DNA of 40,291 nt from Microcoleaceae cyanobacterium MO_207.B10 (GTDB lineage Bacteria > Cyanobacteriota > Cyanobacteriia > Cyanobacteriales > Microcoleaceae): positions 1 through 40,291 of the forward strand of contig JASJEE010000052.1 in the NCBI GenBank assembly GCA_030064835.1. The letters run 5' to 3'. Positions 31,976 to 35,945 of this stretch are shown here, one piece after another. Within the stretch, counting starts at the first letter, position 1. Each line of letters begins with the position of its first letter. Made by a program: the position numbers and the translations under genes. Below the pieces are notes generated by a model, which was not told the origin of the DNA, did not search any database, and saw only the letters and a list, made by a program, of their open reading frames with translations.

Positions 31976-32332
31976 CTAATTATTATCCATATCATCAGTC
32001 GAATTTAGTAAAACGGACTCAAGGAGTGCCAAAACTTCTGGAACATCACTTTGAATGACATCCCAAAGGGTATTAAAGTTAAGGCGATCGTATTGATGAG
32101 CAAGAATATCTCGCATTCCAGCAATATCTTTCCAAGGAATTTCTGGGTATTGTTCTCTAAATTATGGTGATAGTCGCTTGGTAGCTTCTCCCATTACAAT
32201 AATTTGATAGAGAATAGCAGATTGTTTTTCCTCATTGGTTTCTAACTCCGATTTATCAATCCCTTCAGCAAAATGCAAAACTCGCCTTGCTGCGTTAACG
32301 ATATCCAAAAGTGATGCTTTATCCCTGCTCAT
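31976..32332 (-). pseudogene. hepT: HepT toxin with a nonsense codon
   Basis: The frame starts MSRDKASLLDIVNAARRVLH and runs through EKQSAILYQIIVMGEATKRL to SP, then hits TAA at 32164-32162 (codon 57). The same frame continues FREQYPEIPWKDIAGMRDIL, AHQYDRLNFNTLWDVIQ and so on to the natural stop. Other family members read SPEFREQ here, so a single GAA to TAA change is likely. The catalytic Rx4-6H motif of the HEPN RNase (RDILAHQY) lies in the lost half, so the toxin would be inactive. It overlaps the MntA gene by 14 bases, the usual arrangement. Confidence 0.85.
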
Positions 32333-32657: not shown

Positions 32658-33103
32658 ATATATTTCAAAATAACTAATATATTAACATAATTTCTAAGCT
32701 TCTAATATTTCTCGTCTCAACCATTTAATAATAGAATCTATTAAATTCGGATTTTGGGATGAAATACATTCTATATTGTCACATTTTTGGTCTGAGATAA
32801 GACAGATGGAACTGCCAAGGGTGCTTAAGGTAGTGAGAAATGTTTCGCTGAATGAGCGATCGCTGACTTATTATCTCCCCACCCTAAATATATAAAAATA
32901 TTGTCTCCTTGGAATAAAAATACCGGAAAAGGTAGGGAAATTTATTCTAGAACAATATATTGTTTGAAAATCTCAAAATAGAACATTGCTATATTTGATT
33001 ATTCCACGGGAGGTAAGGCAAGATAAAACTTTTTTTAATACTATGATAAGTTAGCTTTTCGACGATTGTTTAAAAAAAAGTATAGACAAAAAACAAAAAA
33101 AGA
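32658..33103. other. AT-rich intergenic region before the cyclodipeptide synthase
   Basis: This 446-base spacer contains a short coding remnant (32694-32870, given separately) and one HIP1 site (GCGATCGC, about 32857). The last 100 bases are very AT-rich and presumably hold the promoter of the plus-strand gene. The bases just before its ATG (AAAAACAAAAAAAGA) lack a strong ribosome-binding site. Confidence 0.4.
32694..32870 (-). pseudogene. Short orphan coding remnant
   Basis: An open stretch of about 58 codons without a start codon reads SDRSFSETFLTTLSTLGSSI, then CLISDQKCDNIECISSQNP and LIDSIIKWLRREILEA before TAG (32696-32694). It looks like the C-terminal end of a protein cut off by an upstream TAA. 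I do not recognise the family. It may also be a chance frame. Confidence 0.35.
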
Positions 33104-33997
33104 ATGAGCAGCCATATAGACGAAGAAAAGATAGTTGAAAATTTTGATTGGAGTAACCTTTCTCTAGAACAGTTGAAGTTGCTTCAATCTCAAATAAGCA
33201 AAGCGATCAATCTCAAGATAAGGGAATTAAACTTACCAAATACTACTACCAATACAGTGCAAGTTCATTTGTATAAAGCAACTTTAGCAAAAGTATTTCC
33301 CCGTCGTCTGCATAATTCGCTTTTTAAGTATCCAAAGTGTGTTTTAGGAGTAAGTTTAGGAAGCAAAAACTTTATCGATACTAACCGACTCGAAGCCTGC
33401 ATTAAATGGATTAGCGAAAACTTCAAGGCTTGTCTAGTGTTAGTTGGCGACAGCGTATATCGACTGACAATTATAATTAGAGACGGAAGAAAGAACAATG
33501 AAACTCGGCTGAAGGCACTTGATACTGGACAGCAATTTATCAACAAAAATTCTCTGCTTTTCAAGCAATACTCGGAAAGCTGTCGTTTCGAGTTCAAATT
33601 GGCTTCAGAAATTGAGAAGCGATCAGAGTTTAATATTTATTATGAAGAACTTCAGAGTCTTTATCAAAAGAATGAATCTTTTCAAAGCTTGGTAAACTCT
33701 TTTGCCCAGACATATCTCAACCGAGGAAAGCAGGTAGAAAAGGAAGGAATTGATGAACTCGGACAGCACTTGGCAATAACTTATCTCCTGGAGGAGTCGG
33801 CACTATTTGCTTACCTTGCTCAAGCAGGATGGTCTGTTTTTGTTTATCCAGGCTCCATCAAAACTTTTGAAGAAATATCGGAAGGACTGCATCCAGAAGT
33901 TCCATCACCTCTCCAGCAGATGATTTGGGTGAGCTTGCGCCTGAAACAAAAGAGTACAAGTGATAATGAAAATATAGAAGAGAAAATTACAAGATAA
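33104..33997 (+). CDS. tRNA-dependent cyclodipeptide synthase, XYP subfamily
   Basis: This 297-residue protein matches cyclodipeptide synthases, which take two aminoacyl-tRNAs and make a cyclic dipeptide (diketopiperazine). The signatures line up with AlbC: the nucleophilic Ser in VLGVSLGSKNF (Ser84), the pocket region CLVLVGDSVYRLT, and the Tyr-x3-Glu in ITYLLEESALF (Tyr227, Glu231). Instead of the NYH triad it has Ser87 with Tyr248-Pro249 (VFVYPG), the XYP pattern. An extra N-terminal stretch of about 60 residues, with a helix (LSLEQLKLLQSQISKAI), precedes the Rossmann-like core. No P450, oxidase or methyltransferase gene lies beside it, so the product may be used unmodified. The next gene, 202 bases on, is a membrane glycosyltransferase with a MITE between. 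Substrates cannot be read from sequence. Confidence 0.88.
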   Translation: MSSHIDEEKIVENFDWSNLSLEQLKLLQSQISKAINLKIRELNLPNTTTNTVQVHLYKATLAKVFPRRLHNSLFKYPKCVLGVSLGSKNFIDTNRLEACIKWISENFKACLVLVGDSVYRLTIIIRDGRKNNETRLKALDTGQQFINKNSLLFKQYSESCRFEFKLASEIEKRSEFNIYYEELQSLYQKNESFQSLVNSFAQTYLNRGKQVEKEGIDELGQHLAITYLLEESALFAYLAQAGWSVFVYPGSIKTFEEISEGLHPEVPSPLQQMIWVSLRLKQKSTSDNENIEEKITR

Positions 33998-34046
33998 AAT
34001 CAACGGTATTACTGCATATTAATAGTCAAGTACAAATTTCTATATC

Positions 34047-34136
34047 AGGACTTACGAAAAATATCCAATGATACAAAATCTGTAGGAGCAATTGGCCAAT
34101 CGCCCCTACTAGATATGGCGGTTATGCGTAAGTCCT
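34047..34136. repeat. Short MITE-like element with AGGACTTACG ends
   Basis: AGGACTTACG (34047-34056) and CGTAAGTCCT (34127-34136) are perfect 10-bp terminal inverted repeats flanked by TATAT on both sides. The interior holds a hairpin, GTAGGAGCAATTGG with CCAATCGCCCCTAC. The ends are related to the element at 13494-13673. Confidence 0.65.
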
Positions 34137-34199
34137 GTATATTAGATTGATGTATCAAGTTTCATAATATATCAATTAAATTTAGGGGTAAATACTAAA

Positions 34200-35945
34200 T
34201 TGGCAATCCCAATCAACACTATAAAAATCATCAAAATAAATAAATTCAACTATCTCCTACTGAGCATCTCCATTTTAATAGGTGCTATCCTCCGTTATAA
34301 TTTCTCAGCTAACAAACCCGCCGACTCCATAGAAATATCAACTTTAGGCTACAGTCTCGGTAATAACTTTCTCGACATCCCCCTAGATACAGTCATCACT
34401 TGGCAACAACTCCTCTCACCCCTCCGCTTCGACTCCACCGCCCAATATAGCGATGTCATTCACAACCTAATGACCGAAAGCACTCATCCCCCCCTATATT
34501 TTCTGCTGACTCACTTTTGGCTGAAACTATTTACCACAGACGGAGAAATAGTATCTCTCGCAGTGGGGCGATCGCTTAGTTGTTTATTCGGTGTATTAGC
34601 TATTCCAGCTATATTTGCCCTTGGTTGTTTTGCTTTTCGCTCTCAGATAGTGGGGCAAATAGCTGCAGCACTGATGGCAGTCTCTCCCTTCGGTATCTAC
34701 ATTGCCCAAGAAGCACGTCATTATACCCTAACAGTCCTCTGGATAATACCTTCTGTTGCTTGTCTCATCGCCACAATACGTTGTCTTCAGCAGCAAAAAA
34801 TATTGCCTTTATGGTTAGGATGTGTCTGGATAATAATTAATAGTTTAGGTATCGCCACCCACTACTTTTTTGGATTAGCACTCGCAGCAGAAGGCTTAGT
34901 TATGGGTTGGTTTTGGCTGCGCGATATCAAATATTTTTCTCAACGTTATTGGTGGCGAATATATGGGGTTGCATTGGGAAGTTTAGTAGGTTGTTTGGTG
35001 TGGTTGCCAGCAGTAACGGGTATTTCCAATAATGAGTTAACTACTTGGATTGAAACCAGTTATGACTTTGAGGATATTTGGCAACCCATTCCTCGCTTAT
35101 TTGTTTGGGGTGTAACAATGATTTTTATGTTGCCAGTTGAAGGAACACCTACTTTTATTAGCATCCTTTCTGGCGTAACAATGTTGTTAGTATTAGTTTG
35201 GGTTTTTCCGAGTTTATGGCGGGGGTGGAAAGTAGCATTCGCTTCTCCAGAAACCAGTCTTTCTCTGCAAATCTTAGCAGGATTTTTCGGGTTTACTATT
35301 CTACTATTTTTGTTTGTAATTTACGGTTCAGGAAAAGATATTTCTTTAGTTGCTCGTTATGGCTTTGTTTATTTTCCTGTGGTTTTGCTATTATTGGGGG
35401 TTGCTTTAGCGAATAGCTTCCAAAATATTGACAATAAAAAACTCAGGGAAAAAGTCTTTAAAATTATTCCTAGTTTTTTCACCGCAACAGGTAAAAAAAT
35501 CATTGTCATTATATTAGTAATGGGATTGTGTGGAGCATTAAGTGTAGTCACAAATTATGCCTATCAAAAATCACGACGAGCAGATTTATTAGCTCAAGTC
35601 ATTCAAAGAAAATCTCAAGCTCCACTATTAATTGCCATGACTTATGAAACTCACTCAGAAATTCGTGCTTTGATGGCTATTGGTTTATATTTTCAACATC
35701 TGGAAAAAAAGGCTAATTTTACAACAGAAAAATTAGAATTTATTCTAGTTAAAAAAGATAAAGATGAAGAAATATTAGCAGATTCACCTCTTGCCAAAAT
35801 CTTGACAGAAAAACCTATATCTTTAGATTTATGGGCAGTGAATTTAGAAGTAAATGAAAAAGATTTAGATAAATTTGGCTGTTTGGAAAATGCTGCTTCT
35901 TTACCAAAAACTAATTATAGTTATGAATTATATAATTGTCGATAA
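34200..35945 (+). CDS. GT39-like membrane glycosyltransferase (ArnT/PMT fold)
   Basis: A 581-residue polytopic membrane protein with roughly a dozen hydrophobic segments. The N-terminal cytoplasmic stretch is followed by the first helix (YLLLSISILIGAI), then a long loop ending TESTHPPLYFLLTHFWLKLF. Next comes AVGRSLSCLFG and GIYIAQEARHYTLTVLW, both typical of GT39/DUF2723-like enzymes. These use polyprenyl-phosphate sugars and transfer them on the outer face of the membrane. The C-terminal part, from about residue 460, is a small soluble domain ending with a Cys-containing tail. The start is TTG (34200-34202) with AGGGG about 12 bases upstream. Acceptor unknown: glycan, lipid or protein. It is the only plus-strand gene near the cyclodipeptide synthase; a functional link is not evident. 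Confidence 0.82.
   Translation: MAIPINTIKIIKINKFNYLLLSISILIGAILRYNFSANKPADSIEISTLGYSLGNNFLDIPLDTVITWQQLLSPLRFDSTAQYSDVIHNLMTESTHPPLYFLLTHFWLKLFTTDGEIVSLAVGRSLSCLFGVLAIPAIFALGCFAFRSQIVGQIAAALMAVSPFGIYIAQEARHYTLTVLWIIPSVACLIATIRCLQQQKILPLWLGCVWIIINSLGIATHYFFGLALAAEGLVMGWFWLRDIKYFSQRYWWRIYGVALGSLVGCLVWLPAVTGISNNELTTWIETSYDFEDIWQPIPRLFVWGVTMIFMLPVEGTPTFISILSGVTMLLVLVWVFPSLWRGWKVAFASPETSLSLQILAGFFGFTILLFLFVIYGSGKDISLVARYGFVYFPVVLLLLGVALANSFQNIDNKKLREKVFKIIPSFFTATGKKIIVIILVMGLCGALSVVTNYAYQKSRRADLLAQVIQRKSQAPLLIAMTYETHSEIRALMAIGLYFQHLEKKANFTTEKLEFILVKKDKDEEILADSPLAKILTEKPISLDLWAVNLEVNEKDLDKFGCLENAASLPKTNYSYELYNCR

Follow-up and report, generated by a model that had tools for sequence, protein, structure and literature searches.

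We propose that a gene on contig JASJEE010000052.1 of Microcoleaceae cyanobacterium MO_207.B10, of which positions 1 to 40,291 (40,291 nucleotides, hereafter the window) were analysed, encodes an XYP-type cyclodipeptide synthase (CDPS) from a cyanobacterial clade that is normally partnered with a TerB-family protein, the window copy being an orphan that yields a cyclodipeptide; we put the probability of this reading at roughly 0.7. Judged by its sequence, the gene adds a new member to an enzyme family already known. By homology and in view of the conserved residues, an aminoacyl group would move from one aminoacyl-tRNA onto Ser84, a second aminoacyl group would join it from another aminoacyl-tRNA, and the cyclodipeptide would be released. 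Enzymes of the clade would work with the small TerB-family protein, which most likely binds or regulates them, and the window enzyme would yield a cyclodipeptide that stays unmodified unless enzymes encoded elsewhere alter it.

The CDPS gene of the window

The following features of the gene are referred to below:
33104..33997 (including the stop codon), + strand: predicted XYP CDPS, 297 aa (PF16715, TIGR04539, model against 9j61_C)
33104..33265, + strand: N-terminal extension of about 54 residues, DEEKIVENFDWSNLSLEQLKLLQSQISKAIN... (clade alignment A8; two AlphaFold helices)
33353..33364, + strand: codons from Ser84 (putative nucleophile; AlbC Ser37) to Ser87 (X of XYP; AlbC position 40), by alignment
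33449..33451, + strand: codon of Asp116, which aligns with ParcuCDPS D58 and is invariant in 33 sequences
33782..33796, + strand: codons from Tyr227 to Glu231 (AlbC Tyr178 and Glu182), by alignment
33845..33850, + strand: codons of Tyr248-Pro249 (AlbC Tyr202 and position 203), the YP of XYP, by alignment

The open reading frame is intact, with an ATG start and 297 codons followed by a stop. The encoded protein scores 30.7 bits against PF16715 of Pfam (curated cut-off 27) and 78.9 bits against TIGR04539 of NCBIfam (curated cut-off 45), and a phmmer search of the PDB returned only CDPSs, with 9j61 at the top (130 bits, residues 55-282), followed by 5ocd, the 7qa/7qb series and 5mlq. The AlphaFold model (23 sequences; pLDDT 85.5) matches 9j61_C with a Z score of 31.4 and an rmsd of 1.2 over 212 residues at 34% identity, other CDPSs follow with Z scores of 24 to 16, and tyrosyl-tRNA synthetase variants come next (Z about 16). 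Thus, the modelled protein has a Rossmann fold related to class I TyrRS/TrpRS, as expected of a CDPS, and its top structural matches are XYP enzymes. Indeed, the positions corresponding to AlbC 40, 202 and 203 hold Ser87 and Tyr248-Pro249, not Asn-Tyr-His. The sequence-only reading, which had assigned the gene to the XYP CDPSs and proposed a PF16715 search and an alignment to AlbC and XYP enzymes, was right: both profiles are passed, the YP signature is present, the catalytic Ser, Tyr and Glu positions are occupied as expected, and Ser84, Ser87, Tyr227, Glu231, Tyr248 and Pro249 stand where it had placed them. Among the first relatives aligned, Ser84, Tyr227, Glu231, Tyr248 and Pro249 are all invariant; in the alignment of 33 sequences, Ser84, Asp116, Glu230, Glu231, Tyr248 and Pro249 are invariant and Tyr227 is nearly so. 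In ParcuCDPS, D58 is described as the Asp that activates the serine (PMC7613923).

The CDPS core is preceded by about 55 residues, the best PDB match starting at residue 55, so that the extension noted earlier is present at a size nearer 55 than 60 residues. It is kept across the clade, with helices predicted by AlphaFold at 7-13 and 21-41 with modest confidence. A short FDW...LE[EQ]L stretch is common to this extension (window 33140-33175) and TerB alignment A3, covering 14 aligned columns at 43% identity with an hhalign probability of 12%, and represents either a common docking motif or chance. The idea that the extension is a TerB fragment was dropped, given that these columns are its only match, despite MAFFT co-alignment.

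TerB genes paired with type-1 CDPS genes

The CDPS tree contains type 1, the clade of the window gene; type 2, which includes 9j61; type 3, made up of longer enzymes; and a distant outgroup. Type 1 comprises 18 rows, the window gene among them, on a long branch with support 100/100. A TerB-family gene (PF05099) adjoins or is fused to 16 of these 18 CDPS genes, preceding 14 of them on the same strand, at distances from a short overlap up to about 600 bases, and lying downstream of the CDPS in L050; in a Prochloraceae MAG, the two are fused in frame (L008 7503-8867, 454 aa), and another TerB and another CDPS follow. This fusion is part of a 4-kb array (L008 6515-10427, equivalent to L078) in which three CDPS genes, belonging to two types, occur together with two TerB domains. 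The partner TerBs score 31-40 bits against PF05099 (cut-off 24.4), and chance adjacency at such a frequency should be negligible because the genomes hold at most about nine TerB matches among several thousand genes. The window gene had been described as standing alone with no tailoring enzyme nearby, which is accurate within the window; its relatives, however, carry a conserved partner gene, such that the lone copy is an exception in its clade, shared with L047. The search for conserved neighbours in related cyanobacterial genomes, as suggested earlier, accordingly singled out the TerB-family gene and not the glycosyltransferase.

The pair occurs in about ten flanking contexts, and flanks differ between most loci, being common only among congeners (L044, L046 and L049 in g5; L052 and L053 in g149; L056 and L059 in g42). 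Other close TerB copies adjoin genes for NRPS (L084, L092 and L089; by sequence also L094 and L082), methyltransferase and haem-oxygenase-like proteins (L087 and L097; similarly L085, L086 and L096) or a P450 (L091), and some lie beside none of NRPS, methyltransferase or P450 genes; in L055, TerB is followed by the CDPS and then by an NRPS gene (2373 aa). These neighbourhoods suggest that TerB has an accessory role in making peptides and natural products. The CDPS-linked copies are not monophyletic in the TerB tree (8 changes), the L050 partner groups with NRPS-linked TerBs, and separate lineages sit with CDPSs of all three types; therefore, the pairings probably arose more than once.

We thus propose a TerB-CDPS module in which physical partnership is suggested by the gene pairing and the one fusion, although gene pairs could also stay together by co-transfer rather than binding. 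In the model of the fusion protein, the separate domains are confident and the pTM is low (0.59), and therefore no interface is claimed; that TerB is a metal-binding or docking subunit is our guess. A wider role, in which TerB proteins serve cyanobacteria as general accessory subunits wherever peptides are made from charged tRNAs or by non-ribosomal synthesis, and in which type-1 CDPSs need TerB for activity, is a tentative extension that we think less likely than not. Considerably less probable than the partner model is a reading in which the CDPS makes a plain cyclodipeptide by itself, the TerB gene being a passenger that accompanies many accessory genes of these cyanobacteria and plays no part in catalysis. 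The window and L047 copies without an adjacent TerB would fit such a passenger, as would the occurrence of the same subfamily beside NRPS, methyltransferase and P450 genes or, sometimes, none of these; the gene fusion, the persistence of the pair across its contexts, the repeated pairing of TerB lineages with CDPSs and the prevalence of peptide or natural-product genes among the neighbours argue for a functional partner. As far as seen, the module and the clade's TerB partner are undescribed variants: no paper returned by searches of an open-access library describes, by its title or abstract, a link of CDPS with TerB or with a YbaK/editing domain.

The window locus and the distribution of CDPS genes

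The genome of the window (G000; 6.24 Mb, 465 contigs, 83% complete) carries one such CDPS gene, with close relatives in a Moorena MAG (67% identity), Hydrocoleum sp. CS-953 (65%) and the Prochloraceae MAG (60%). The Hydrocoleum contig appears identical, with the same length and gene positions, to contig C444 of G430, a genome of the window's family, and an apparent Hydrocoleum duplication (L007) was rejected as overlapping contigs joined at N. By profile search, 9 of the 62 family genomes and 28 of the 391 in the order have a CDPS gene; in a phylum-wide sample, no credible CDPS was found outside the order, where G314 scored 23 bits. Two weak matches in other cyanobacteria (L004, L005) were discarded as chance, falling in unrelated ORFs or running across stops. 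Broken or truncated CDPS or TerB copies occur in relatives, e.g., L057, L064, L071 and L072. Thus, the CDPS gene is accessory and patchy in distribution. Carriage by a phage or plasmid was rejected, as a tblastn search of phage and plasmid collections gave no match to the CDPS; the gene may nonetheless have spread by mobile elements.

These searches used the window protein and custom profiles; PF16715 had missed the gene when run against its own genome. The curated PF16715 cut-off misses 3 of 4 clade genes tested, the type-1 genes below it being L006 555-1475 (22.3 bits), L008 7503-8867 (not listed) and L008 9684-10427 (14.6), so that mining tools relying on it probably overlook loci of this kind.

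Two further features belong to the locus:
32680..34186: CDPS-bearing segment with no nucleotide counterpart in G420 (L103); blastn matches of the flanks stop at 32679 and resume at 34187
34200..35945, + strand: multi-pass membrane protein, labelled GT39-like in the sequence-only reading; outside the CDPS module, with homologues in 61 of 62 family genomes

Nine PF05099 matches are present in G000, and the best of eight checked scored about 17 bits against the partner-subfamily profile, which clear members match with 120-310 bits. The partner subfamily was therefore not found in this 83%-complete draft, nor was a TerB remnant found within the window. The window CDPS is probably an orphan member of its clade, with the partner possibly encoded in the missing part of the genome. 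Alternatively, but with a rather low probability, the window copy is a relic orphaned by partner loss, its product no longer made, as might befit a draft genome in which the partner was not found and a group of relatives in which decayed copies are common. Against such decay stand the complete reading frame, the retention of every catalytic residue and of almost the whole set of conserved core residues, and dN/dS values of about 0.2-0.3 relative to most relatives (two methods, dS near 1), which, as averages over long branches, are compatible with recent decay of the window copy. On balance, the copy is intact and appears to be under purifying selection.

In the window, the CDPS lies between a MntA/HepT pair and the conserved membrane glycosyltransferase-like gene. 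The flanks are syntenic in G420 (genus g149), with 92% nucleotide identity up to 32679 and 84% from 34187, and in place of the CDPS the slot there holds a stretch of about 4.8 kb that encodes two STAND/AAA-like NTPases. Thus, the CDPS sits in a variable slot that was shaped by insertion or by differential loss. The HepT-like toxin gene of the window (31979-32332, - strand), which adjoins the MntA-like nucleotidyltransferase gene, has an in-frame stop after residue 56; an intact, 96% identical copy is present in L103.

NACHT-type NTPases with an NNH2 helical domain were seen near CDPS or TerB genes in three genomes of one family, which may be chance:
L006/L079, 1789-4619: NACHT NTPase (Pfam in L006)
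L054, 3147-6605: NACHT NTPase (Pfam)
L064, 10721-13822: NACHT NTPase (sequence likeness)

NACHT-type NTPases are common in such genomes. Their proximity to CDPS and TerB genes in L006/L079 and L054, together with the STAND/AAA-like genes that fill the window's slot in G420, could hint that the CDPS is a conflict or stress effector that drains charged tRNA under the control of such neighbours. We consider this quite improbable, given that the CDPS has no PADLOC match, that the NACHT link is confined to a few genomes of one family, and that the placement of TerB-CDPS beside NRPS (L055) and of type-2 CDPSs beside P450 points to biosynthesis.

Finally, it is most improbable that the adjacent membrane protein glycosylates the cyclodipeptide, as had been speculated and as its position on the same strand about 200 bases away might suggest: the gene is conserved across the family mostly without a CDPS, is 80-82% identical in g149 genomes that have no CDPS beside it, and adjoins no other CDPS, the lone match near a TerB locus reaching 32% identity over 156 residues. 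The GT39-like label is without Pfam support (no match at E 0.001).

Substrate pockets, domain variants and known systems

Among known systems, the window enzyme is closest to the Streptomyces sapporonensis CDPS (PDB 9j61), its best PDB match in both sequence and structure, with the same catalytic set and the XYP signature. The two differ in that the match begins after the window extension, that a long branch with full support sets the clade of the window gene apart, and that the pockets are FGLGCIFM/FDYKGFS in 9j61 and VGLGALFF (P1)/FTYRGIK (P2) in the window enzyme, the pocket positions being transferred from AlbC numbering by alignment and hence inferred. Streptomyces sapporonensis is the bicyclomycin producer; its enzyme BcmA makes cyclo(Ile-Leu).

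Most type-2 enzymes have the pockets FGLGCIFM/FNYRGFS, the same or nearly the same as those of enzymes making cyclo(Leu-Ile) (cLI) or cyclo(Leu-Leu) (cLL), for which Table 2 of PMC5816076 gives P1 FGLGC[VI]F[MF] and P2 F[RS]YRGF[SG], based on two enzymes. In L060, L061 and L063, genes for a cytochrome P450 and a TerB protein come after the type-2 CDPS gene on one stretch, and the pocket motifs predict cyclo(Leu-Ile) or cyclo(Leu-Leu) as products. The window pockets deviate from the cLI/cLL motifs and match none of the motifs tabulated in PMC5816076, and, because of this, the amino acids used are not predictable. The type-1 clade has a common P2, F-x-Y-[RQ]-G-I-K, and at P1 position 35, which in some XYP groups is regarded as the main determinant of the first amino acid (PMC5816076), it varies between G, I, L, A and P. 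Thus, the clade appears to be an unassigned specificity group, the members of which may use different first amino acids.

Type-3 enzymes carry an N-terminal aminoacyl-tRNA editing domain of the YbaK/ProX type (PF04073, cut-off 25.5):
L066, 7789-8949: CDPS-editing domain fusion (65.6 bits)
L068, 8207-9382: CDPS-editing domain fusion (46.8 bits)
L070, 7044-8084: CDPS-editing domain fusion (44.9 bits)
L069: weaker match (22.8 bits, below the cut-off)

L064 and L067 have a type-3-like length, group with type 2 and show no Pfam match in the N-terminal part. The editing domain could bind, select or proofread charged tRNA, and its fusion to CDPSs is apparently an undescribed variant. The fusions covered in a 2018 overview, in the portion available, are C-terminal, with methyltransferase, P450 and ABC transporter in NYH enzymes and a C-terminal domain of unknown kind in Legionella enzymes; TerB and N-terminal editing domains are both absent from that portion.

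The presence of a CDPS in a cyanobacterium, which the sequence-only reading implied to be new, is not: XYP CDPSs had been reported there by 2018 (PMC5816076), and 9 of 9 Roseofilum MAGs carry a CDPS cluster (PMC9967302). The Roseofilum enzymes likewise come from filamentous marine cyanobacteria and are known as predicted gene clusters only, with neither TerB nor a subfamily mentioned in the relevant part of that report (PMC9967302). CDPS 99 of Lyngbya confervoides, also a cyanobacterial XYP enzyme and compared here by its description, gave no product when expressed in E. coli (PMC5816076). Many XYP enzymes that show no activity come from fungi, cyanobacteria or metagenomes, and tRNA mismatch or a start-codon error has been suggested as the cause (PMC5816076). 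If the TerB-CDPS pairing is functional, a missing partner protein would be a third, simple explanation, the failure of a cyanobacterial CDPS to give a product when made in E. coli on its own would be accounted for should TerB be needed, and the stalled problem of inactive XYP enzymes would become testable.

The solved XYP structures (Nbra-CDPS, Fdum-CDPS, Rgry-CDPS and ParcuCDPS) share the fold, the catalytic residues and the YP signature with the window protein at about 17-24% identity, and we know of no TerB link for any of them. On the TerB side, the nearest solved structure is 2ou3 (tellurite resistance protein, COG3793), which the partner profile matches with 50 bits. Classic TerB is located in ter stress operons, whereas the TerB genes described here pair with CDPS, NRPS, P450 and methyltransferase genes; if the pairing with CDPSs is functional, TerB would be tied to natural-product synthesis, and the wider role as an accessory subunit would give TerB domains a defined function in making peptides.
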